From Terriglobia bacterium (GTDB taxonomy: Bacteria; Acidobacteriota; Terriglobia; Acidiferrales; UBA7541): DNA of 46,668 bases. The translations under genes and the position numbers were made by a program. Positions within the stretch are counted from its first letter, which is position 1. The number at the start of each line of letters is the position of its first letter. The stretch lies in NCBI GenBank assembly GCA_020072805.1, contig JAIQGC010000028.1, positions 1 to 46,668 on the forward strand, in the 5' to 3' direction. Of this stretch, positions 10,386 to 20,797 are shown one piece after another. A model generated the notes under the pieces. It was not told the origin of the DNA. It did no database searches and saw nothing but the letters and a program-made list of their open reading frames with translations.

Positions 10386-12074
10386 CTAAGGCTTCTGGCT
10401 CTCCTTGCGGGCGGTCTCGAATTCATCGCCGGGCAGCCAGGCGGGCAGGGAGGGCAGGGTGGCGGCTTTCCAGCCGAGAGCAAAACCGAAGCGGGCGATT
10501 TTGGCGGTGCCGGAAAAATCCATTTCGGGCTTGTACTCGTCGGAGGGCTGGTGATAGCGGTGGTCGACGTAATCCTTGGCCTGGGCCAGACCCCATTCGG
10601 CGGGATGGCCGGCAAACTTCACGCCTTGATTCACGGAAAAGCCGGGAACGCCCACGCGGGCGAGGCTGAAGTGGTCGGAGCGGTAATAGTGACCCGCTTC
10701 GGGGCGCGGGTCGGGTTTATTGGCCAGGCCAAATTCCTTCGCTGTTTCCTCGACCTGGGGAAAAAAAGTGGTGCGCTCGGCGCCGCTAACCTCGACCTCC
10801 CCGGGATCGCCGAGGGGCGGGACATTGTCGAAGTTGAGATCCAGCGCGATTTTGCCGCGGGCCAGCGGCGCATGCTTGCCGAGGAATTCGGAGCCGAGCA
10901 GACCCTGCTCCTCGGCGGTGACCGCGGCGAAGTAGACGGAGCGCGCGGGTGGCGTGCCGAGCGAGCCATAGACACGGGCCATTTCCAGGAGGATGCCGCA
11001 GCCGGTGGCGTTGTCCATGGCGCCGTTGAAGATTTTGTCGCCGGGAAGATCGGGATTGATGCCGAAGTGGTCGTAGTGGGCGGTGAAGAAGACGGCTTCG
11101 CTGCGCCGGGCGGGATCGGCGCCGGGGAGATAAGCGAGGACGTTGGTGGAGACGAAGGGGCGAAGCTTGCTGGCGATATGGGCCTTCAGGCGGACGGGCA
11201 GCTCGATGGGCTTGAAGTCGCGGGACTGCGCCGAGGCGAAGAGCTTGTCGAGGTCATGCCCGCCGAAAGCGACGAGCTTTTTCGCGACGTCCCAGGAAAT
11301 CCAGGAGGCCGCCTGGAGAACCGGCGTGGCATCGCGCTCGAGATAGGAGTGCTCGCCGCCCCAGGAATTGCGGACGACTTCCCAGCCGTAGCTGGCCAAA
11401 TCCGTGCGGTGAATGATCAGAGCGGCGACGGCGCCGCGGCGGGCGGCTTCTTCAAACTTGTAGGTCCAGCGGCCGTAGTAGGTGAGGGCTTTGCCCTTGA
11501 AGAATTTGGGGTCGTCCGAGGCGGGCTCGGCAACGAACATGACCAGGACTTTGCCGCGCAAGTCCAGGCCCTTGAAGTCGTCCCAATTGTATTCGGGGGC
11601 ATGGATGCCAAAGCCGACAAAAACGACCGGCGCGTCAATCTCGGAAGAAGGGCGCTGGGTCTGATCGCCGGTGACATAGTCTTCCAGCAGCTTCAATGCC
11701 AGGGGGGCGCCGGCAGCGGGTTGCAGAGTGAAAGTGGTTTCGGGAAGGGTTTGCACGCCCATCATGGGAACTTTCTGGAGGAAGGAGCCGTTGTCGCCGC
11801 CGGGCTTGAGCCCGGCCAGGGCGAATTGCGTGGCGATGTATTCGGCGGCGATTTCACCGCCGCGTGCGCCAGTGCCGCGCCCTTCGAGAAGGTCATGGGA
11901 GAGGAAGCGGACATGGGCGCGCAGGTTTTCCGGATTGATGGCGCGCATGGCGGCGGCCGCGGCGGGGGGAAGCCCGGAGGATTCCTCGCCGGCGAGCAAG
12001 CGCGCGCCGGCGAATGCCGCGGCGCCCAGAAACACCGCCGCCAGCAGCGCAATCTTTTTCCCGTTTCTGTTCAT
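10386..12074 (-). CDS. Secreted M28-family zinc aminopeptidase with PA-domain insertion
   Basis: 562 residues. A signal peptide or membrane anchor spans about 8-30 (ALLAAVFLGAAAFAG). The M28 core begins near 50 (NLRAHVRFLSHDLLEGRGTG) and is interrupted by a PA-like domain at about 135-275. The zinc and catalytic residues then follow: HYDH at about 333-336, GAMDNATG (bridging Asp near 354), TAEEQGLLGS (Glu base and ligand near 388-389), LDLNFDN (Asp near 412) and a final His in DHRYHQPSDE near 505-515. Such enzymes remove N-terminal amino acids outside the cytoplasm. The second ATG (12074) is preferred because GAGG sits 6 bases before it but directly abuts the first ATG at 12080. It lies between nrdR (43 bases) and the MFS gene (36 bases). 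Confidence 0.92.
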   Translation of the reverse strand: MNRNGKKIALLAAVFLGAAAFAGARLLAGEESSGLPPAAAAAMRAINPENLRAHVRFLSHDLLEGRGTGARGGEIAAEYIATQFALAGLKPGGDNGSFLQKVPMMGVQTLPETTFTLQPAAGAPLALKLLEDYVTGDQTQRPSSEIDAPVVFVGFGIHAPEYNWDDFKGLDLRGKVLVMFVAEPASDDPKFFKGKALTYYGRWTYKFEEAARRGAVAALIIHRTDLASYGWEVVRNSWGGEHSYLERDATPVLQAASWISWDVAKKLVAFGGHDLDKLFASAQSRDFKPIELPVRLKAHIASKLRPFVSTNVLAYLPGADPARRSEAVFFTAHYDHFGINPDLPGDKIFNGAMDNATGCGILLEMARVYGSLGTPPARSVYFAAVTAEEQGLLGSEFLGKHAPLARGKIALDLNFDNVPPLGDPGEVEVSGAERTTFFPQVEETAKEFGLANKPDPRPEAGHYYRSDHFSLARVGVPGFSVNQGVKFAGHPAEWGLAQAKDYVDHRYHQPSDEYKPEMDFSGTAKIARFGFALGWKAATLPSLPAWLPGDEFETARKESQKP

Positions 12075-12117
12075 GGCCATCCTCGATTCCGTCCCGGAAT
12101 GATTTTTCCTGTTACCT

Positions 12118-12582
12118 TTACTTTTTTGTGCGGTCCTTCAGCAGCCCCTTGAGTTCGCTCATGAATTCCTTGACGTCCTTGAAATCCATGTAGACGGAAG
12201 CGAAGCGGACGTAGGCGACTTTATCCAGTTTTTTCAGGTGGTGCATGATCATTTCGCCCACTTCGGTGGTGGTCAGTTCCCTTTCGGTGGCGTCGTGGAC
12301 GACGCCTTCGATTTCATCCACGATGGCTTCGAGCTTGGGGGTGGGCACGGGCCGTTTTTCGCAGGCCTTGAGGAGACCCTGAAGAATTTTCTGGCGGTCG
12401 AAGCGCTCGCGACGGCCGTCTTTCTTGATGACCATGTAGGGGATTTCGTCAATCCGCTCGTAGGTGGTGAAGCGCCGTCCGCATTTGAGGCATTCCCTGC
12501 GGCGGCGGATGGTGTCGCCGGTGCGGACTTCGCGGGAGTCGATCACCTTGTCGTCAACGTGCGCGCAAAAAGGGCATTTCAC
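12118..12582 (-). CDS. nrdR: Transcriptional repressor NrdR
   Basis: 154 residues from a GTG start, matching the family's usual length and its canonical beginning (VKCPFC). NrdR represses ribonucleotide reductase genes in response to bound ATP/dATP. The N-terminal zinc ribbon uses CPFC and CLKC (about residues 3-6 and 31-34), followed by RRFTTYERI and an ATP-cone domain (MVIKKDGRRERFDRQKI onward). AGGAG lies 10 bases before the GTG at 12582. The frame stays open 18 codons upstream to an ATG at 12636, but those residues are unlike the family. No ribonucleotide reductase gene is in the window. It is probably the first gene of a nrdR-M28-MFS transcription unit. Confidence 0.95.
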   Translation of the reverse strand: MKCPFCAHVDDKVIDSREVRTGDTIRRRRECLKCGRRFTTYERIDEIPYMVIKKDGRRERFDRQKILQGLLKACEKRPVPTPKLEAIVDEIEGVVHDATERELTTTEVGEMIMHHLKKLDKVAYVRFASVYMDFKDVKEFMSELKGLLKDRTKK

Positions 12583-12641
12583 TCGGCTGCTTCTCCTGAC
12601 CCGGCGGGATTCAAGTGTACGTGCCGGTAAAACCATCCGTT

Positions 12642-12688
12642 GAGATTCTTTGTCCCGGGAAGAAGTACCGGGGCTCAGAATGACAAAC
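12642..12688. repeat. GAGATTC...AGAATGACAAAC interspersed element, copy 1
   Basis: Ends GAGATTC and AGAATGACAAAC enclose an inner hairpin CCCGG-GAAGAAGTA-CCGGG. A related element with the same ends lies at 24334-24390. It occupies the gap between nrdR and the flippase-like gene. Confidence 0.6.
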
Positions 12689-12701
12689 TTTGTTGAGGCG
12701 G

Positions 12702-13763
12702 CTAGGCCGACTCTTCCTCTTCCTTCAGGGCCACGCGGCGAAGTTCGCCGAGGGACCAGCCCTCATGAATCAGCAAGGGCACGCCGGCCAGACTGACCGA
12801 GGCGAAGGAAATCAGCCAAACGACAATGGCGGCCACGGCGGCGCGCTCCTTTTCTACCCCAAAGATCGCCGTATAGGCAAGGAACGTGGCGACCTGGGAG
12901 CCGCCGCCCACCCCGGGCAACTGCACCGCGGAACCGACCAGGGCAAAGGCCAGGACCAGAAGAGTGCCGCCGAAGCTGATGGCCGCGAGAGAACCGCCAA
13001 AGCTTTGCGCCGTCCAATAATAAACCACGGCCACCAGGGCCCAGTGAACGCCGGAATAGGCCAGGGTCTCACCGAGATCGCCCCAGGTGCGGATGGTCTG
13101 GACGCCGCGGGCAAATCCCAGGATCATGCGGGCGCCGTGACCGCGCCAGCCGTGGACGTGATGCCATTTTTCGAGGCGGCGTTCGAGGACGATCGTGCCG
13201 TGCAAGCGGAAATAAACCAGGAAGCCGATAGCGGCAAGAACGCCGGCGAAGAGGATGCCTCCAGTGGTCCGGGCGGCTTTTTCCAGGCCGCCCGTGGATT
13301 CACCGGCGGGGTGCGTGGCGGTGAAGACGAACAGGCCGATGGCGGCGATGACCACGGCGCAGGCCATGTCCAGCAAACGTTCGAGCACGTAAACGCCGAA
13401 GGTATCCGCAATGGGAAGTTTTTCCTTGCGCGCCAGCAGCAACGGGCGCACCGGCTCGCCCGCGCGGCCCAGCAGGAACATGGCGCTGAATCCGGCCAGG
13501 GTCACGCGGTAGATATTGCCAAAATTGGCGGCGCCCAGGCGGCGGGCCAGGCGCATCCAGCGCAGGGCGCGAATGGCGAAGCAGGTGTAAATGGCCGCCA
13601 GGGAGAGAAGCAGGAGGGAGAGGCGAGCCTGGCGGAGAGAAGCGAGAAGGAGTGCACCGCTGAAGCTCGAGAAAGGGATGGACTTGCGCATGCGGTAGAG
13701 CAACGCCCCCAGCAGGCACAGCCCAATGATGGTAAAAAGCACTTTCCGGCTTGTCCGACCCAT
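12702..13763 (-). CDS. Flippase-like integral membrane protein (LPG synthase TM / UPF0104 family)
   Basis: 353 residues from the ATG at 13763 (MGRTSRKVLF). About eight hydrophobic segments and the family blocks ALRWMRLARRLG, FSAMFLLGRAGEPVRPLLLA, YVLERLLDMACAVVIAA and LPGVGGGSQVATFLA place it in the lysylphosphatidylglycerol-synthase transmembrane / AglD2 / YbhN group. Members carry or flip lipids or lipid-linked sugars; the cytoplasmic aminoacyl-transfer domain of MprF is absent, so lysyl transfer is unlikely. The start is chosen for its Lys/Arg-rich N-terminus; the frame continues 27 codons upstream to 13844. It is divergent from the ECF sigma operon, with which it shares a 248-base regulatory interval. 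Confidence 0.85.
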   Translation of the reverse strand: MGRTSRKVLFTIIGLCLLGALLYRMRKSIPFSSFSGALLLASLRQARLSLLLLSLAAIYTCFAIRALRWMRLARRLGAANFGNIYRVTLAGFSAMFLLGRAGEPVRPLLLARKEKLPIADTFGVYVLERLLDMACAVVIAAIGLFVFTATHPAGESTGGLEKAARTTGGILFAGVLAAIGFLVYFRLHGTIVLERRLEKWHHVHGWRGHGARMILGFARGVQTIRTWGDLGETLAYSGVHWALVAVVYYWTAQSFGGSLAAISFGGTLLVLAFALVGSAVQLPGVGGGSQVATFLAYTAIFGVEKERAAVAAIVVWLISFASVSLAGVPLLIHEGWSLGELRRVALKEEEESA

Positions 13764-13934
13764 GGAAGGCAGCCTACTGGCCCCCCGGCTTGGCGTCAAG
13801 CCCGACTTGGGCTTCCGGAGACAAGACAATTCCCATGATTGCAAGAATTTAGCGGTCTTGCGCGGCCTGGGGGGGATGAGAGTAAGATGCCCTTGCCGGA
13901 CGATTTAGCGGGTGCCGTGCCGGCCTGCTTTCGG

Positions 13935-13960
13935 GGAACATTCGAGACCCCTTTTTCGTT
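13935..13960 (+). promoter_or_regulatory. Candidate ECF-sigma promoter (GGAAC-N17-CGTT)
   Basis: GGAAC at 13935-13939 and CGTT at 13957-13960 are 17 bases apart, the arrangement recognised by many ECF sigma factors. It lies about 50 bases upstream of the sigma gene start, as expected for positive autoregulation. Assignment is by motif only. Confidence 0.5.
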
Positions 13961-14011
13961 ACATCATCAGCAGGCCGAAATGCGAAGCGGGGTTTCGAGA
14001 CTGAGGCGAAG

Positions 14012-14608
14012 TTGGAGCAGGATTCACAACTGGTCCAGCAATGCCTCCAAGGCGACGGGTCGGCCTGGGAGGAGCTTGTACGGCGCCATACGCGGCGGGT
14101 GTATAACCTGTGCTACCGCTTCACGGGAAATGGCAGCACCGCCGAGGATTTGACGCAGGAGGTCTTTTTGAGGATTTACAAGACCATCGGGAGTTACCGC
14201 TCGGCGCACGGGGGCTTTGCCACGTGGATGACCAGCGTGACGCGCAACCTGCTGATCGACCATTACCGGCGGACCAAGCGCGACCGGCTGACGGATTCTC
14301 TCGACGACGCCATGCCCGTGGTGGAAAACAAGGAGTCCTCGGCGCGGCGGCCGGATCAGCAAGCGCTGGCCGGAGAGTTGAGCGCGCAGGTGCACAGCGG
14401 ATTGCAGAAACTTTCCCCGGACCTGCGGGAAGCGGTGATCCTGAGGGATTTGCAGGGACTGGACTATGGGGAGATCCGGCAGGTGCTGGGAGTGCCGGAA
14501 GGAACGGTCAAATCGAGAATCAACCGCGGGCGGATTGAACTGGCGCGCGTTCTGGAGCAGATGGGAGTGCGGCCGAACCAGGGAGCGAGGGCGCGGAGCG
14601 GATTATGA
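14012..14608 (+). CDS. RNA polymerase ECF-type sigma factor
   Basis: 198 residues. Region 2 (about 25-95) includes the core-binding block AEDLTQEVFLRIYKTIGSYR and the -10-recognition segment FATWMTSVTRNLLIDHYRR. Region 4 (about 130-185) includes LSPDLREAVILRDLQGLDY and the helix-turn-helix GEIRQVLGVPEGTVKSRINR that reads the -35 element. Regions 1.1 and 3 are absent, as in ECF factors. The start is a TTG at 14012 with GAGG 5 bases upstream; no ATG in frame fits. The stop overlaps the anti-sigma start (ATGA), and a GGAAC/CGTT promoter-like site lies upstream. It presumably directs RNA polymerase to this operon and to unlinked envelope genes. Confidence 0.93.
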   Translation: MEQDSQLVQQCLQGDGSAWEELVRRHTRRVYNLCYRFTGNGSTAEDLTQEVFLRIYKTIGSYRSAHGGFATWMTSVTRNLLIDHYRRTKRDRLTDSLDDAMPVVENKESSARRPDQQALAGELSAQVHSGLQKLSPDLREAVILRDLQGLDYGEIRQVLGVPEGTVKSRINRGRIELARVLEQMGVRPNQGARARSGL

Positions 14609-15291
14609 ACTGGACCTGCGAACAAATCGAAGAGCGACTGAGCGATCAGCTCGACGGTCAGCTCACGGCCACGGAGCTAGAAGCTTTTCTGGAGCACTTG
14701 CGCGGTTGCGCACCGTGCGCCGGGCTGCTGGCGCGGGTATCCCAAGCGCTGGCGGGCCTGCGGGAAATCGGAGCGGTGGAAGAGCCGCCGCGGCTCGTTT
14801 ACAACATTCTTGACCAGACGCTGGGGAAGAGGGAAAGCGCGGCGGGCTGGAGTGTGGCGCTGGGATTCCTGCGCGGTCTGGCTTCGCCGAAATTCGCCTA
14901 TGGAGCGATGTCCGTGGCGGCCACGCTGGCCCTGCTGCTGACGGCCGCGGGTTTCTCCGGGAGCAGGCCGCAACTGGCGGATCTGCACCCGGCGCAGATC
15001 TATCGCAACGCCGACCGGCAGGCGCACCTGATCTATGCGCGGGGAACGCGCTATGTGAACGACCTGCGGGTGGTCTATGAGATTCAGTCGCGGCTGCGGC
15101 CGGAGGGGGAAATGCCGTCCGCGCCGGAAAATGGCGCGCCGGATTCTTCGCCGAAGACGCGGCCGGATGACGTCACCGACGGCCCGCAGAAATCCGCTCC
15201 GCGGCATTACAACCGGGCCAACGATCTTCAGCGCATCGTCACCGTGCTCGCCTCTCAGGTGACGGCGCTTAGTCCAAGGAGTCTGCGATGA
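14605..15291 (+). CDS. Membrane-bound zinc-binding anti-sigma factor (ZAS type)
   Basis: 228 residues. The cytoplasmic N-terminus has the ZAS motif HLRGCAPC (HxxxCxxC, His31/Cys35/Cys38) with an upstream Cys5 as possible fourth ligand; in the family this domain holds the sigma factor inactive. A single membrane segment lies at about 98-118 (AYGAMSVAATLALLLTAAGF), leaving a periplasmic tail of about 110 residues that could sense envelope state. The tail is hydrophilic with a Pro/Glu/Asp-rich middle. The four-base overlap with the sigma gene shows coupled synthesis, and its own stop overlaps the next gene's start in the same way. Loss or cleavage of this protein would be expected to release the sigma factor. 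Confidence 0.88.
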   Translation: MNWTCEQIEERLSDQLDGQLTATELEAFLEHLRGCAPCAGLLARVSQALAGLREIGAVEEPPRLVYNILDQTLGKRESAAGWSVALGFLRGLASPKFAYGAMSVAATLALLLTAAGFSGSRPQLADLHPAQIYRNADRQAHLIYARGTRYVNDLRVVYEIQSRLRPEGEMPSAPENGAPDSSPKTRPDDVTDGPQKSAPRHYNRANDLQRIVTVLASQVTALSPRSLR

Positions 15292-15731
15292 ATTGCGCGG
15301 TCCATGCGGAGCGGGAAGCAACCGGCTATTGCCGGAATTGCGGGAAGGCCTTGTGCGGGGAGTGCACGCGGGCGGTGCGCGAAGTGCTCTACTGCGAAGA
15401 TTGCCTGGCCAAGGTGATGGGGCACGCGGCAGGCGCGGGCGCGACGGCGGCGGCCCCTGGTTCTCCCGCTTCCGGTCATCCGAGCACGGGTAGCCCGGGG
15501 ATCGCCTTCGTCCTCGGCTTCTGCCCCGGGCTGGGCGCGATCTACAACGGCCAGTACAACAAGGCGCTGATTCACATCCTGGTCTTTGCCACGCTGGTTG
15601 CCGGCGTCAGCATCGCCCACGGGGGACTTGCGCCTGTCTTTGGCCTCTCCATCGCCGGATTCATCTTTTATATGGCCTTCGATTCATTGCGCACCGCGCA
15701 GAACCTGCGCGCGGGCGCTCACGAGCAATGA
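15288..15731 (+). CDS. B-box-like zinc-binding membrane protein
   Basis: 147 residues. The N-terminal 40 residues hold a regular Cys/His array (C3, H6, C15, C18, C23, C26, C36, C39), a B-box/treble-clef-like zinc module. A Gly/Ala/Pro/Ser linker (about 47-70) joins it to two or three hydrophobic segments: GIAFVLGFCPGLGAIYNGQY, then ALIHILVFATLVAGVS, then LAPVFGLSIAGFIFYMAF. The GLGAIYNGQYNKAL block resembles TM2-domain-type membrane proteins. Similar zinc-finger/TM proteins are frequent in Acidobacteriota beside ECF systems; this is recollection. The start overlaps the anti-sigma stop by four bases, so it belongs to the same operon. Function unknown. Confidence 0.8.
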   Translation: MNCAVHAEREATGYCRNCGKALCGECTRAVREVLYCEDCLAKVMGHAAGAGATAAAPGSPASGHPSTGSPGIAFVLGFCPGLGAIYNGQYNKALIHILVFATLVAGVSIAHGGLAPVFGLSIAGFIFYMAFDSLRTAQNLRAGAHEQ

Positions 15732-15738
15732 TGACTCG

Positions 15739-15918
15739 ATGGAGACATGGACCAGGGAAAAGCCGATAGGGCCGATTCTGCTCATCACGCTGGGGGTACT
15801 TTTCCTGCTGGATAATTTTGGATGGCTGCCCTGGGAGCGCGTGGAGCGGTTCTGGCCAGTGCTGCTGATTGTCGCGGGGATCATCCTGCTGCGGAAACGT
15901 CTGGGGCAATCATCCTGA
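15739..15918 (+). CDS. Small two-helix membrane protein (LiaI-like), first of three hairpin copies
   Basis: 59 residues, almost all membrane hairpin: PIGPILLITLGVLFLLDNF, a short Trp-rich loop, then FWPVLLIVAGIILLRKR. This matches the LiaI/LiaF-type transmembrane region seen next to envelope-stress regulators. The ATG at 15739 lies 7 bases after the preceding stop; there is no good ribosome binding site, so translation probably depends on coupling. The same hairpin recurs in the next two genes. No catalytic residues are present, so a structural or sensory role is likely. Confidence 0.75.
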   Translation: METWTREKPIGPILLITLGVLFLLDNFGWLPWERVERFWPVLLIVAGIILLRKRLGQSS

Positions 15919-15931
15919 GAGGAGCACGGCA

Positions 15932-16177
15932 ATGATCGAGCGAATTCGTTGTGCCTGTCCGCGCTGCACGATTCGCGGAATCAAGGGTCCGGCCGTGCTA
16001 ATCACGCTGGGGGTGCTGTTCATGCTGGGCCAGTGGCGCGGGGAGTTCTTTGCGTTTCGCTACACCTGGCCGGTGCTGCTCATCGTGCTGGGGCTGATCA
16101 AGCTGGCCGAATCGCTCGCCTCTTCCGAGGGGCATGGAACCAGCGACGCGCAGACGCCGCAAGGACAGGGGCAATAA
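15932..16177 (+). CDS. Small two-helix membrane protein (LiaI-like), second copy
   Basis: 81 residues. A Cys-containing N-terminus (CACPRC) precedes the hairpin GPAVLITLGVLFMLGQW ... YTWPVLLIVLGLIKLAESL, nearly the same as in the preceding gene, followed by a short Gln/Gly-rich tail. AGGAG sits 9 bases before the ATG at 15932. The TAA stop directly abuts the next gene's ATG. CPRC could bind metal or form a disulfide; this is not tested by context. Confidence 0.78.
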   Translation: MIERIRCACPRCTIRGIKGPAVLITLGVLFMLGQWRGEFFAFRYTWPVLLIVLGLIKLAESLASSEGHGTSDAQTPQGQGQ

Positions 16178-17536
16178 ATGGCCATGGGAGCAAACGGACA
16201 ACCGCGACGCAGTTCGCTCTTCAGCGCCCTGGTGCTGATCCTTTTCGGGACGCTCTTTCTTCTGCACAACTACCGCGGAGGGGTCAACTTCGCGGAGCTT
16301 ATCCACCACTGGTGGCCGGTCCTGCTCATTCTGTGGGGAGTTTCGAAGCTCTACGAGCGCACCATGGGACGGCGGGAGGGAGCAAAGGCGCCGACGGTCA
16401 CCGCGGGAGAGATTTTTCTGGTGCTGGGCATGCTCACCCTGGTGGGAGTCTTTGCGCTGGCGGAAATTCTTCCCGGGAAGATCCAGGGCACGGAGCCGCT
16501 GTGGGGAAGCGAATTCACCTATGACGCGGCCGTGGCGCCGCGGGCGGTTTCTCCGACGGCGCGAATTGCCGTGCGCATCCCGCGGGGAAACATCACGGTG
16601 CACACCGCGGACACGCCGGAACTGAAGGTTGCCGCGCAAAAACGGGTGCGCGCGTGGAGCGAGGCGAGAGCGGAGAGCATCGCCAATGGCGTGAGGATCG
16701 AGATTGCCCCGGACGGGGACGACTTTGAGGTGCGCACCAGCGGGACGGACACGCGAGCCGCCAGCGTCAGCGTGGACCTGGAGATCACCGTGCCGCGCAA
16801 GGCGGCGCTCACAATTCGTGATGAGCGCGGCGACGTGGAGGTCAACGACGCAGGCAGCGAGCTGGCGATCAGCACGCGCTACGGCGATGTGACGGTTTTG
16901 AATGCGGGCGCCGGAGTGAGCGTGGAACTGGGGCACGGCGACGTGAGGGTTTCGGGCGTAAAGGGCAACGTGAAGATTTCCGGAAAAGGCGGCGAGGTAG
17001 AGGTCAGCGAGGCGACCGGGGGCCTGACGCTCGACGGGGAATTCTACGGACCCATCCGCGCGGAGAAGGTGGCCAAGGGGGTGCGGTTTATCTCCAGCCG
17101 CACCGATCTGACGCTGACGCAGCTCAACGGGAGGATGGAGGCCAGTTCGGGCAATCTGGACATCTCCAAGTCGTCAGGGGATCTTACCCTGCGCACAAAA
17201 TCGTATGTCGTCAGCCTGGAAGACGTGACCGGACGGATGAACATCGAGAACCGCGGCGGAGACGTCTCCGCGCGGTTCACCACACCGCCGATGGAAGAGA
17301 TTGAGATTACGAATAAGTCCGCGAGCATTTCGCTGACGCTGCCGCGCGCTTCCACGTTCGAACTTTCGGCGGAGTGCCGCTCCGGGGATATTGATTCGGA
17401 ATTCGAAGCGCCCACGCTAAAGAAGACGACGGGAGAATCCGGCGGGGCGCGGCTCGAGGGCAAGGTGGGAACGCGCGGGCCGCGGATTACCTTGAAGACG
17501 AGTTACGGGTCGATTGGGTTGCACAAGGGGTCGTGA
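16178..17536 (+). CDS. LiaI/LiaF-like membrane region fused to a DUF4097 beta-repeat domain
   Basis: 452 residues. The N-terminus has a third copy of the hairpin (SALVLILFGTLFLLHNY ... WWPVLLILWGVSKLYER, about 14-62) and a further membrane segment (EIFLVLGMLTLVGVFALAEI, about 78-97). From about 125 to the end is a long run of short beta strands with recurrent G-D/N-hydrophobic turns (GDVEV, GDVTV, GDVRV, GEVEV, GNLDI, GDLTL, GDVSA), the pattern of the DUF4097 family, probably a solenoid outside the membrane. It is the last and largest gene of the sigma operon and starts immediately after the preceding stop. In Firmicutes, related Lia proteins respond to envelope damage; a similar role here is inference. 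The convergent aroA gene ends 47 bases downstream. Confidence 0.85.
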   Translation: MAMGANGQPRRSSLFSALVLILFGTLFLLHNYRGGVNFAELIHHWWPVLLILWGVSKLYERTMGRREGAKAPTVTAGEIFLVLGMLTLVGVFALAEILPGKIQGTEPLWGSEFTYDAAVAPRAVSPTARIAVRIPRGNITVHTADTPELKVAAQKRVRAWSEARAESIANGVRIEIAPDGDDFEVRTSGTDTRAASVSVDLEITVPRKAALTIRDERGDVEVNDAGSELAISTRYGDVTVLNAGAGVSVELGHGDVRVSGVKGNVKISGKGGEVEVSEATGGLTLDGEFYGPIRAEKVAKGVRFISSRTDLTLTQLNGRMEASSGNLDISKSSGDLTLRTKSYVVSLEDVTGRMNIENRGGDVSARFTTPPMEEIEITNKSASISLTLPRASTFELSAECRSGDIDSEFEAPTLKKTTGESGGARLEGKVGTRGPRITLKTSYGSIGLHKGS

Positions 17537-17548
17537 GAAGAGAAAACC

Positions 17549-17580
17549 GGCCGGGCTAAAGCCCGGCCCCTACAAAAGCC
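17549..17580. repeat. Interspersed palindrome with CTACAAAAGC tail, copy 2
   Basis: GGCCGGGCT-AA-AGCCCGGCC, 9-base perfect arms, followed by CCTACAAAAGCC. It lies exactly between the convergent DUF4097 and aroA genes and could end transcription in both directions. Confidence 0.7.
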
Positions 17581-17583
17581 AGT

Positions 17584-18885
17584 TCAACGCTCGGCCAGGC
17601 GGTCGAGTTCCCTGTAAAACTCGGGATAGGAAACGCCGGCGCATTCGGCGTCGCGGATGACGGTGGTTCCCTGGGCGGCGAGGCCGGCGACGGCGAAGGC
17701 CATGGCGATGCGGTGATCGCCGCGCGGCTCGATTTCCGCGCCGTGCAGCCGCCCTGTCGAGCGGCCTTCGACGCGCAGGCCGTCGGGCCGCTCGTCCACG
17801 TGCGCGCCCATGCGGCGAAGATTTTCGGCGAGAGCGGCGATGCGGTCGCTCTCCTTCACGCGCAGTTCCTTGGCGTCGCGAATTTCGATGCCCTGCTCGG
17901 TGAACGGCCCCAGGGCCGCCAGCATGGGCAGTTCATCGATCAGCAGCGGAATTTGCGGGCCTTCGATGATGCCGCCCTTGAGCTGCGAGCCGCGCACGGC
18001 GATCTGTCCGGTGATCTCGCCGTTGGCCACCAGCGGAGAAAGAATGGTGATCAAGCCGCCCATGGAGGCCAGGGCGTCGAGCACGGCAGTGCGCGTGGGA
18101 TTCAGGCCGACGTTGTGAATGAGCAGGTTGGAGTCGGGCAGGAGCAGTGCGGCGGCGATGAAAAACACGGCGGAAGAAATATCGCCGGGGATATCCAATT
18201 GGCGGGGTTCGAGGCGTCCGCTGGAGGCCATGCCAGAAACGCGCACGGTACGGCCAGTTTTTTCAACGTGCGCGTCGAAGGCTTCCAGGGCCAGTTCGGT
18301 GTGGTCGCGAGTGCGCGCGGGTTCGGTGACCGATGTGACGCCCTCGGCGAAGAGGCCGGCGAGGAGCACGGAGGATTTTACCTGGGCGCTGGCCATGGGC
18401 ATGGGATAGTCAATGGCGCGCAGAGCGCGGCCAGTGATTTCCAGCGGGGCAAAATTGTCCTCGCGGGCGCGGATTTCGGCGCCCATCTGGCGGAGCGGGT
18501 CCACCACGCGGCGCATGGGGCGGCTGCGCAGGGAGGCGTCGCCGGTGAGGGTCGAAGAAAAACGCTGGCCCGCGAGAATGCCGGCGAGGAGGCGCATGGT
18601 GGTGCCGGAGTTGCCGGCGTCGAGAGCGCTGCGGCTGCCGGCGAGCCCGCGCAGGCCTTTTCCGGTGATGCGTACGGTGTCCTTCTCGCGCTTCACTTCG
18701 GCGCCGAGCGCGCGCATGCAGTCGAGCGTGCTCTGGCAATCGGCGGCGGAGGCGAAGTGGCGGAGTTCGCTCGAGCCCTCGGCCAGCGCCGCGAGCATGG
18801 CGTAGCGGTGTGAAATGGATTTATCGCCGGGCGTTTCGATGGCCCCGGTGATGATCTTCGCCGGACGTATGCTCTCTTTTCCCAT
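17584..18885 (-). CDS. aroA: 3-phosphoshikimate 1-carboxyvinyltransferase (EPSP synthase)
   Basis: 433 residues. It joins phosphoenolpyruvate to shikimate-3-phosphate, the sixth step of the chorismate pathway, in the cytoplasm. Family blocks: PGDKSISHRYAMLAAL (about 19-34), LDAGNSGTTMRLLAGILAG (about 88-106), SRPMRRVVDPLRQMGAEI, SAQVKSSVLLAGL, and the C-terminal LRVKESDRI and EPRGDHRIAMAFA. The four short motifs used to define class II EPSP synthases are all present: RDHTE, GDKS, SAQVK and NPTR. That class tends to be less sensitive to glyphosate, but no sensitivity can be read directly. It stands alone among shikimate genes. The ATG at 18885 has only a weak ribosome binding site. Divergent from the S55-like protease gene. 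Confidence 0.97.
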   Translation of the reverse strand: MGKESIRPAKIITGAIETPGDKSISHRYAMLAALAEGSSELRHFASAADCQSTLDCMRALGAEVKREKDTVRITGKGLRGLAGSRSALDAGNSGTTMRLLAGILAGQRFSSTLTGDASLRSRPMRRVVDPLRQMGAEIRAREDNFAPLEITGRALRAIDYPMPMASAQVKSSVLLAGLFAEGVTSVTEPARTRDHTELALEAFDAHVEKTGRTVRVSGMASSGRLEPRQLDIPGDISSAVFFIAAALLLPDSNLLIHNVGLNPTRTAVLDALASMGGLITILSPLVANGEITGQIAVRGSQLKGGIIEGPQIPLLIDELPMLAALGPFTEQGIEIRDAKELRVKESDRIAALAENLRRMGAHVDERPDGLRVEGRSTGRLHGAEIEPRGDHRIAMAFAVAGLAAQGTTVIRDAECAGVSYPEFYRELDRLAER

Positions 18886-18982
18886 GATTCAGTTTACCAT
18901 GCGGGTTTTGGATTTTTCTCCCCGGCGGCGCGGCTTCCCTTCCGTTGCTTCCGGCCATGCCGGGGGGTATGATTTTTGCTTG

Positions 18983-20797
18983 ATGCCCCTGATGAAAACA
19001 TTTCCATCTGTCCTTCCGCGTATTCTGCTTGCTTCAGCGCTGGCGCTTGCGGCCAGCATGCTGCCTGCCTCGGCGCAATCGCCGCCGGCTGCGGCGGCCG
19101 CGACGGGCGAAATCCTCCCGGTGAGCGAAGTGCGCGCGGGGATGAAGGGCTACGCGTACACGATTTTTGCGGGGGATCAGGTGGAGAAGTTCGACCTGGA
19201 AGTGATCGGGGTGCTGCCCAATTTCCTGGGGCCGCGGCAGGCCATCATCCTGGTGCAACTGCTGGGGGCCAAGGTCGAGCACACCGGCGTGGTGGCGGGG
19301 ATGAGCGGCAGCCCGGTGTATCTCGAGGGAAAACTGGCGGGGGCGCTCTCCTTGAAGCTGGGGATATTCACGAAGGAAGCCATCGCCGGGGTCACGCCCA
19401 TCGAGGACGTGCTGCAAGCGCCAGTGAGTTTACCGGGGGCGCAACAAGCGGCACAGTCCGCCGCATCGGCCGTTCTGCCGGAAACTTTTTCCGCGCGCAG
19501 CGGGCTCCCAGCGGCATCGGCGCTGGAGCGCATCGAGACGCCGCTGGTCTTTTCCGGATTTCAGCAGAGCACGCTGCGGGAATTCGCGCCGCAACTGGCG
19601 GGCTACGGATTCGTGGCGGTGCAGGGAGGAACGGCCGAGCCGCGCGCGGATGATGCGCAATTGCACCCCGGGGAAATGGCCGGGATGGTGCTGGTGCAGG
19701 GGGACGCTTCGATCAATTCCGCGTGCACGGTGACGGCGGTGCGCGGCGACCAAGTATTTCTGTGCGGGCACCCGTTTCTGGGGATGGGAACGCTGAGCCT
19801 GCCGATGGCCCGCAGCCGCGTAGTGACCACGCTGGCCTCGAGTCTGGCTTCGACCAAGATCGTGAACGTCGGCGGGCCCATCGGCACGATCACGGCGGAT
19901 CATCTGACGGCGGTGGTGGGCAAGCTGGGCCCGCCGCCGGCGATGATTCCGCTGGACCTGGCGGTGGTCTGGGGCGGCGCAGAAAAACAATTTCATTTCG
20001 AAGTGGCCCACCTGCAGAAACTGACGCCGATGCTGGTGGCCATTTCCACGCTCAACGGGCTGACGCAAAATCCGCTCTACGGCGAAGGAAACACGCTGCA
20101 GGTGACCGGCGAGGTGCGGGTGAAGGGGCATGCGAGCCTGCGCATCGAGAACACCTACGCGCCGGGAGATTCCGGCAACCCGGACGGAATGTCCGTGGCG
20201 CTGGGAATCCTGGGAACGGTATCGCGGCTATTTTCGAATACGTATGAAGAGCCGGCCATCGAGCGTATCTCGCTGCGGGTGGAGAGCGCGGCCGGGAACC
20301 ACTCGTACCGGATCGAAGGCGCGTGGCTGGATACGGCCGAGGTTGCTCCCGGAGGAACCGTGCGGGTTCGGGTGCTGCTGCGGCCCTACCGCGGCGAACC
20401 GCAGATGAAGGAACTCACCTTGCGCGTGCCGGAACAGGCCGCGCGCGGGAAGACGCTGCGCGTGCTGGTAAGCGACGCGGAAGGCCTGAACCGGGCCGCG
20501 CGCGGATTTTTTCCAGGCGGCGCCGGAGCGGAAGGCGGGCTGGAACCGTTCATCGCGCTGCTGAACCGCGAGCGGCGCAACGACCGGGTGTACGCGGGGC
20601 TTTTTCTTCCCGCGCCCACGCTGATTCTGGCGGACAAGGAAATGCCCAACGTGCCGCTTTCGCAACTCAACGTGCTGGACGGAAAATCCGCGCCGGGACC
20701 GGCGCAGATTTTGCGGGAGTCGCTGGCCGGCGAAGATGCCGTGGCGCTAGGCGGGCCGGTCGGCGGAGCGGTTTCGCTGACGCTTGTGGTGCGCTGA
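18983..20797 (+). CDS. Secreted SpoIVB/S55-like serine peptidase-domain protein
   Basis: 604 residues from the ATG at 18983 (18992 is also possible; neither has a strong ribosome binding site, and the frame runs open to 18815). A signal peptide spans about 5-32 (ending ASAQ). Residues about 42-140 match the part of peptidase S55 that carries the catalytic serine: DQVEKFDLEVIGVLPNF, then VVAGMSGSPVYLEGKLAGAL with Ser110. A GHPF motif (His263) in VFLCGHPFLGMG resembles the GH(V/I)ISD histidine motif of SpoIVB but lies after the serine. The C-terminal third is beta-rich and unrecognised. SpoIVB itself is a sporulation signalling protease; here no sporulation genes are seen, so a periplasmic processing role is inferred. 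The beta-propeller gene begins 62 bases later. Confidence 0.82.
   Translation: MPLMKTFPSVLPRILLASALALAASMLPASAQSPPAAAAATGEILPVSEVRAGMKGYAYTIFAGDQVEKFDLEVIGVLPNFLGPRQAIILVQLLGAKVEHTGVVAGMSGSPVYLEGKLAGALSLKLGIFTKEAIAGVTPIEDVLQAPVSLPGAQQAAQSAASAVLPETFSARSGLPAASALERIETPLVFSGFQQSTLREFAPQLAGYGFVAVQGGTAEPRADDAQLHPGEMAGMVLVQGDASINSACTVTAVRGDQVFLCGHPFLGMGTLSLPMARSRVVTTLASSLASTKIVNVGGPIGTITADHLTAVVGKLGPPPAMIPLDLAVVWGGAEKQFHFEVAHLQKLTPMLVAISTLNGLTQNPLYGEGNTLQVTGEVRVKGHASLRIENTYAPGDSGNPDGMSVALGILGTVSRLFSNTYEEPAIERISLRVESAAGNHSYRIEGAWLDTAEVAPGGTVRVRVLLRPYRGEPQMKELTLRVPEQAARGKTLRVLVSDAEGLNRAARGFFPGGAGAEGGLEPFIALLNRERRNDRVYAGLFLPAPTLILADKEMPNVPLSQLNVLDGKSAPGPAQILRESLAGEDAVALGGPVGGAVSLTLVVR

Follow-up and report, generated by a model that had tools for sequence, protein, structure and literature searches.

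In the genome of a Terriglobia bacterium (Acidobacteriota; GenBank assembly GCA_020072805.1), a stretch of 46,668 nucleotides, which we call the window, carries on its plus strand at 13935–17536 a compact operon in which the genes for an extracytoplasmic function (ECF) sigma factor and a membrane anti-sigma factor are followed by genes for membrane proteins of the kinds known from the Lia and Psp envelope-stress systems. The operon is real and recurs in many families of the phylum. Judging from its gene content and promoters, we think it probable that it is an autoregulated ECF envelope-stress switch, which would drive Psp/Lia-type membrane parts without PspA and would comprise this core operon together with genes scattered elsewhere in the genome. 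The locus consists of a promoter-like site and six plus-strand open reading frames (ORFs), listed here with residue (aa) counts, Pfam E values, and predicted transmembrane (TM) segments.

13935..13960, + strand: ECF-type promoter-like site GGAAC-N17-CGTT, 77 bases 5' of the sigma start codon
14012..14608, + strand: ECF sigma factor, 198 aa, TTG start (Sigma70_r2 2.2e-22, Sigma70_r4_2 2.1e-14)
14605..15291, + strand: membrane class I anti-sigma factor with zinc motif, 228 aa, one predicted TM segment (zf-HC2 1.1e-10)
15288..15731, + strand: B-box zinc finger plus TM region, 147 aa (zf-B_box 5.2e-6); in relatives, the N-terminal part of a longer gene
15739..15918, + strand: LiaI-like TM hairpin a, 59 aa (PF18917 1.1e-12); in relatives, the C-terminal part of the B-box gene
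15932..16177, + strand: LiaI-like TM hairpin b, 81 aa, with an N-terminal cysteine cluster (PF18917 2.8e-7)
16178..17536, + strand: LiaI-like hairpin plus third TM segment plus Toastrack/DUF4097 domain, 452 aa (DUF4097 3.3e-18, PF18917 6.2e-8)

Gene order, domain content, and the gene fusion and promoter conservation described below were computed directly. The sigma protein, with sigma-70 regions 2 and 4 in about 200 residues, qualifies as an ECF factor, and all three of the last genes match PF18917, the Pfam profile for LiaI-LiaF-like TM1. A first-pass annotation, made from the letters of the window alone, had named an ECF sigma factor, a zinc anti-sigma factor, a B-box protein, hairpin proteins, and a hairpin–DUF4097 fusion, and Pfam supports each of these identities. 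It had also described six genes packed with ATGA overlaps or gaps of 0–13 bases, which the ORF coordinates bear out: the first two junctions are ATGA overlaps, and the next three leave 7, 13, and 0 bases between genes. The coordinate at which that annotation began, 13935, is the first base of the GGAAC-N17-CGTT site. A terminator scan of the stretch found no terminator-like site between the operon genes; the sole plus-strand site sits inside the last gene, and the whole stretch holds 2 sites against a shuffle mean of 4.3. A promoter scan found no sigma-70-type promoter, and Rfam gave no match at its gathering threshold within 12000–19500. The six genes are presumably co-transcribed.

Conservation was followed first within 95 genomes of the window's order, where sigma matches were accepted at E values up to 1e-40. 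A strong sigma match occurs in 75 of them, the window's included, once per genome. Behind the sigma gene, the anti-sigma, B-box, hairpin, and Toastrack genes are kept in 72 of the 74 other order loci, and the two that fall short of the full operon (L061 and L105) both end at contig edges; the clustering is thus not chance. PF18917 is found in 80 of the 95 genomes, among them all 75 with the sigma gene. Fifteen of the 20 genomes without a sigma match also lack PF18917, including all 10 of two genera (g10 and g12), and those that have PF18917 without the sigma match (G020, G039, G050, G080, and G085) are 59–86% complete. The co-absence of the two gives a Fisher p of about 1e-13, uncorrected for kinship or completeness.

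In the wider phylum and class, a sigma match at 1e-35 was found in 166 of 297 genomes, again including the window's, and 80 loci were sampled from 78 of the 166. The sigma gene is accompanied by anti-sigma, B-box, and Toastrack genes in 54 of these loci. As for the others, one has no anti-sigma gene beside the sigma gene, one has the B-box gene only, three have the anti-sigma gene only and lie at contig ends, and 21 have none of the partners. These 21 include two second copies and two loci short of downstream sequence (L167 and L179). Sixteen of the no-operon sigmas group in one clade (support 97/70) in a tree of 98 rows, in which order loci were thinned to about 1 in 6; two outgroup rows of this tree (L002 and L003) carry wrong-strand translations and its paralogue branches are very long, and only placements inside the operon-like sigmas were used. 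With these 16 forming a single clade, the notion that every related sigma marks the operon was dropped. In the three no-operon loci inspected (L173, L185, and L190), lysA-like genes, named by eye, lie beside the sigma gene.

A reverse search, which started from the B-box protein and covered named genomes, confirmed 328 stretches; results for named loci refer to the best 80 of these 328. Seventy-nine of the 80 are titled Acidobacteria or one of its subgroups, and the other (L273), titled Bacillota, is probably mislabelled. The sigma gene is present in all 73 loci with 2 kb upstream, the Toastrack gene in all 72 with 3.3 kb downstream, and sigma, anti-sigma, and Toastrack genes together in all 65 with enough sequence on both sides. 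The search for the same gene order across Acidobacteriota that the first-pass annotation had called for has found it at each of the three scales, and the suggestion of a distinct module of Acidobacteriota, in which an ECF/anti-sigma switch is combined with membrane parts of the Lia type, stands with these parts kept together across phylum loci. The annotation had also considered that the last genes might usually lie away from sigma genes. This does not hold for the B-box and Toastrack genes, given the 73 of 73 loci above, but hairpins of the LiaI type, taken as a family, are also found in other places in order genomes, outside the operon.

Two oddities were seen among these loci. The sigma factor of L108 (G070:C83) clusters with another family of the class and not with its own, which may reflect transfer or contamination. 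In L188, L191, and L197, a second, divergent sigma-like frame lies 0.6–0.8 kb upstream of the operon.

The promoter-like site is conserved along with the genes. The form NGAAC-N17-CGTT, counted with CGTT, CGTA, or CGTC, stands ahead of the sigma gene in 71 of 72 order loci, and the promoter with a 17-base spacer recurs in 64 of 76 named loci (a set that partly overlaps the order set) and in 52 of 55 operon-bearing phylum loci. Alternative spacings of 12 to 22 bases turn up only 0–5 times per locus set, and shuffled upstream sequences contain the promoter in about 1 of 72 order loci. Elsewhere in the phylum, operon promoters also occur with CGTA or CGTC. Among 24 loci filed as lacking the operon, only L141, L154, and L162 have the promoter; all three are cut by contig ends with the anti-sigma gene present, so the promoter is absent from all true no-operon loci (0 of 21). 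A site of this kind is typical of self-regulated ECF sigma factors, and we infer that it is used by the operon's own sigma.

The window departs from its relatives in one respect. A single frame encodes both the B-box domain and the first LiaI hairpin in every order locus with the gene (72 of 72) and every named locus (80 of 80), as well as in 51 of the 56 other phylum loci that hold a B-box gene; in the remaining five, no hairpin was detected in the B-box frame. The fused protein is 198–265 residues long in the 40 named examples measured. Within its order, the split form occurs only in the window, where a net 4-base difference near 15700, relative to three compared relatives, ends the B-box frame and places the hairpin in another. 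This may be a real recent split or an assembly error. Six genes, three of them LiaI-like, is thus a correct description of the window, as the first-pass annotation had it, but not of the operon in general.

The protein features were compared in alignments whose rows were chosen by hand (A1, 36 of 39; A4, 35 of 38, with short or overlong sequences left out; A5, 38 of 40; A2, 24 of 41; A3, 32 of 47; A6 and A7, 15 of 50). Of 131 anti-sigma relatives, 129 have the zinc motif HX3CX2C and the other two HX4CX2C; the H, C, and C of the motif are aligned in 32 of 32 chosen rows. Hydropathy gives the anti-sigma protein one hydrophobic segment near residue 97. The outer tail of the window protein has no Pfam match, that is, no recognised extracytoplasmic domain, and the tail is poorly conserved beyond the class; within the class, its best-kept part is the membrane-adjacent outer segment, with consensus ADRxxHxxYARxxKxxxDLRxVYE. 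Among class-level relatives, all 38 fused B-box proteins aligned share C3, H6, C15, C18, C23, C26, and C36. The strict B-box zinc pattern is found in 107 of 128 relatives and is partly lost in some. A structural model of one fused relative (L240; mean predicted local distance difference test score (pLDDT) 84, predicted template-modelling score 0.53) has four long helices after the zinc domain, and this model fits an arrangement with both termini inside.

For the Toastrack fusion, simple hydropathy gave inconsistent TM counts, and an AlphaFold model (mean pLDDT 88.7) was used instead; it has helices at 14–32, 38–66, and 76–101 followed by a confident beta-helix. A Foldseek search with this model returned 4QRK as best match (E 3.3e-9) and 4OPW at 2.8e-4, with poor global superposition (TM-scores below 0.4), and a PDB sequence search gave no match. 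The DUF4097 profile and the 4QRK/4OPW-like beta-helix together identify the domain as a Toastrack. The N-terminus and the second loop are positively charged in 33 of 35 (A4) and 36 of 36 (A1) sequences, which with three TM helices would place the Toastrack domain outside; it is thus predicted to face outward. This agrees with passages in which the DUF4097 domain of LiaG is described as extracellular (PMC9239133). It conflicts with statements of Ravi et al. 2024, who hold the Toastrack to be intracellular (PMC11237479). Our prediction bears on the membrane side of this domain, on which the published statements in these two sources differ.

How might these parts work together? At rest, the membrane anti-sigma factor, with its cytoplasmic zinc motif, one TM segment, and short, poorly conserved outer tail, would hold the sigma factor, and membrane or wall damage would free it. 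Since no sensing domain is recognised in the anti-sigma factor itself, the signal would most likely enter through the adjoining membrane complex, which would consist of the B-box protein on the cytoplasmic side together with its hairpins, the second LiaI hairpin, and a hairpin protein with a Toastrack domain predicted to face outward. The free sigma factor would then transcribe its own operon from GGAAC-N17-CGTT and, through a like motif, scattered genes for PspC, for an exported two-gene unit, and for secreted Toastrack proteins, whose products would stabilise the membrane. Both the signal and the output in this scheme are inferred. Taken in full, as a PspA-free Psp/Lia response run by an ECF sigma, with an anti-sigma lacking a sensor domain that is gated by the membrane complex of the same operon, and with the one sigma driving PspC, secreted Toastrack, and exported-family genes, the scheme is one that we put forward tentatively.

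The gating step could be dispensed with if the membrane complex were a housekeeping assembly that merely shares the promoter, and if the anti-sigma factor sensed alone through an amphipathic outer helix. The conservation of the membrane-adjacent segment, the best-kept part of the tail within the class, is what such a helix would lead one to expect. The tail is, however, poorly kept beyond the class, whereas in every named locus with room the B-box protein accompanies the sigma gene. We therefore regard this alternative as unlikely.

A second alternative is that the operon belongs to a true Lia or Psp system, in which the hairpins anchor a PspA or LiaH protein encoded elsewhere. Its LiaI and DUF4097 parts do match, and PspA (PF04012) is present in 28 of the 95 order genomes. 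However, a profile search found no PspA match in the window's genome (G000), which is 99.8% complete, nor in 67 of the 95 order genomes overall, and the sigma pair occupies the place of LiaRS in the operon. One order genome (G037; locus L044, G037:C344) has a PspA gene that precedes the sigma operon by about 2 kb, a point in favor of this alternative; the other PspA places listed are not on the sigma gene's contig. We consider this possibility highly improbable, and the operon falls outside the definition of either system, because it has a sigma pair in place of LiaRS and no PspA was found. Like the Firmicutes Lia system (liaIH-liaGFSR), it has LiaI hairpins and a membrane-anchored, LiaG-like DUF4097 protein; unlike it, no LiaH/PspA was found, and sigma and anti-sigma genes stand in the operon where LiaRS would be. 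The NCBIfam LiaG equivalog model matches at 1.8e-14 but with 53.7 bits, far under its cut-off of 285.

The closest working precedent appears to be sigma-W and RsiW of Bacillus subtilis. Passages on the sigma-W regulon include yvlABCD in its core and pspA in its secondary part (PMC3498285), and YvlB and YvlC are described, in passages of another source, as a DUF4097 and a PspC protein, respectively (PMC9239133). Both systems pair an ECF sigma with a zinc-motif anti-sigma. The acidobacterial system differs in that its Lia/Toastrack parts lie inside the sigma operon itself, with a B-box fusion, in that no PspA was found in the window's organism, and in having an unnamed exported unit with a like promoter. 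The same precedent qualifies two statements of the first-pass annotation. Its term "proteobacterial-style" for the switch is not supported, as the zinc motif also occurs in RsiW of Bacillus, according to passages of PMC7406223. Its hybrid of sigma switch and Lia-type parts is real but less alien than was implied, considering sigma-W control of yvlABCD and pspA (PMC3498285) and the sigma-linked contexts described by Ravi et al. (PMC11237479). In passages of the latter work, Toastrack contexts include LiaI-LiaF-TM, DUF2089–B-box variants, and an operonically linked sigma factor (PMC11237479); the acidobacterial operon resembles these neighbourhoods in its Toastrack, LiaI-LiaF-TM, and B-box parts and its linked sigma. 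The words "anti-sigma" and "acidobacteria" have 0 occurrences in the main text of that paper, and the relevant passages contain no acidobacterial operon, anti-sigma, promoter, or regulon (PMC11237479). Passages on the acidobacterium Solibacter list an ECF paralogue and no more (PMC3174227). A literature search, with subscription papers mostly outside its reach, found nothing joining an ECF sigma, DUF4097, and an anti-sigma, or Acidobacteriota, a sigma factor, and envelope stress; this silence is weak evidence of novelty.

We turn now to the scattered genes. Genomes were scanned with a strict motif, GGAACWTT-N14-CGTT, and a loose one, GRAACWT-N15-CGTW, with the reversed motif as control. The strict motif has 221 matches in the order genomes against 79 for the control, and about 70 of the 221 are the operon's own; the idea that it is nearly private to the operon was dropped on these summed counts. 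In the window's genome, the loose motif has 18 matches against 9 for the control. Twelve of the 18 lie inside called frames and six outside, the latter each 48–77 bases 5' of a gene; the ORF caller was crude, and "outside called genes" is approximate. The six genes or units so preceded are this operon, a PspC gene (encoding a zinc-ribbon protein with two PspC domains), a LiaF-like gene (a hairpin plus a DUF2154 Toastrack domain), a secreted DUF4097 protein, an exported protein of an unnamed family with its partner, and a 67-aa membrane protein.

Three of these candidate targets keep the motif in other genomes. Upstream of PspC, it has a spacer of exactly 17 bases in 29 of 30 loci (the best 30 of 88 genomes), the exception having 16. 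For the exported unit, 50 loci were taken from 68 genomes (the 30 best and 20 chosen) and one was discarded because its upstream sequence was too short; 48 of the remaining 49 have the motif with this spacer, the exception again having 16. The secreted Toastrack gene is preceded by it in 17 of 19 loci (20 loci from 19 genomes, one dropped). Shuffled upstream sequences of these three sets give on average 0.3–0.6 motif matches. Such ECF-type motifs ahead of PspC and Toastrack genes are the mark of a sigma-W-type regulon, and because promoters of the same form precede these genes, a function in envelope stress gains indirect support. It is plausible that the same sigma factor reads the scattered promoters, as would follow from the likeness of the sites.

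The exported two-gene family, which has repeated "VPL" domains, is found in 68 of the 95 order genomes (L370:1430–2529 in the window's genome; loci L340–L389), and the site ahead of it in 48 of 49 loci has the form GRAAC-N17-CGTH. The exported protein and the product of the partner gene share a domain (hhalign probability 98). No convincing Pfam family was found for the unit, and a PDB sequence search with the exported protein gave nothing significant. The family may have some relation to the SHOCT-like domains found alongside Toastrack proteins. The gene for the 67-aa membrane protein (L391:1278–1478, - strand, in the window's genome) lies 48 bases 3' of a looser copy of the motif; it belongs to no family found, and its association with the motif may be chance.

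Several points weigh against the scheme as a whole. First, in the order, the operon promoter reads GGAAC..CGTT, whereas those of PspC and the exported unit are mostly GAAAC..CGTA or GGAAC..CGTA. This difference in the -10 element means that another ECF sigma could read the latter two. Second, the strict motif shows no excess in the window's genome (3 matches against 2 for the control). Third, 8 of the 10 g10/g12 genomes, none of which has a sigma match, retain PspC. Fourth, three in-gene loose matches (L396, L399, and L400) fall in short, doubtful frames with no recognised envelope gene adjoining. Fifth, LiaF-type genes were rejected as conserved targets, with the motif ahead of only 2 of 18 relatives (from 20 hand-picked non-operon PF18917 loci, 2 without a LiaF match being removed); some of these may not be true counterparts. 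Sixth, the envelope role of the exported unit is a guess from its export and co-regulation. Finally, 12 of the 76 named loci lack the operon motif.

The first three of these points would be accommodated if the sigma factor were a local switch that controls its own operon only, with PspC and the exported unit under another ECF sigma with a sigma-W-like GAAAC..CGTA promoter; sigma-W promoters have the form TGAAAC..CGTA. Two other ECF genes do share the exported unit's contig, about 6–8 kb off. Yet CGTA and CGTC are also found in operon promoters of other phylum members, as noted above, and secreted-Toastrack promoters are mostly CGTT (11 of 17). The strict motif, moreover, is in order-wide excess beyond the operon's own copies. 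No other sigma gene stands near the motif either: none of the 18 loose matches in the window's genome is close to any of its 12 weaker sigma matches, the nearest being about 5.6 kb away, and in the upstream sequences of seven of the weaker sigma genes we read only two weaker look-alikes (GGTA in L008; CGTG with 15 bases in L002) and none in the other five. The exported unit, unlike PspC, is missing from all 10 g10/g12 genomes (overall Fisher 0.001). On this evidence we consider a purely local switch rather unlikely, and continue to prefer a sigma factor that reads both its own operon and the scattered genes.

Acidobacteriota are abundant in soils and poorly understood. The operon provides a phylum-wide candidate switch with a defined promoter, predicted targets, and an unnamed exported protein family. 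It also bears on the question of how transcription is coupled to Toastrack and LiaI proteins where PspA and LiaRS are absent.

An LPG_synthase_TM gene, oriented divergently, flanks the operon on its upstream side, and an aroA-like gene, named from its sequence, converges on it from downstream. Between the convergent operon and the aroA-like gene lies a GC-rich inverted repeat (17549–17568), terminator-like on the minus strand. Farther on, a 660-aa protein (18815–20797, + strand) has a sub-threshold match to the SpoIVB peptidase S55 family (7.8e-5; 23.2 bits against a cut-off of 25). On the upstream side, NrdR and LPG_synthase_TM genes run divergently at 12121–13844 on the minus strand. An LPG_synthase_TM gene is found within 800 bases of the sigma gene in 31 of 69 named loci with room, and a similar-looking NrdR/LPG_synthase_TM pair, judged by eye, also stands upstream in the distant loci L139 and L196.

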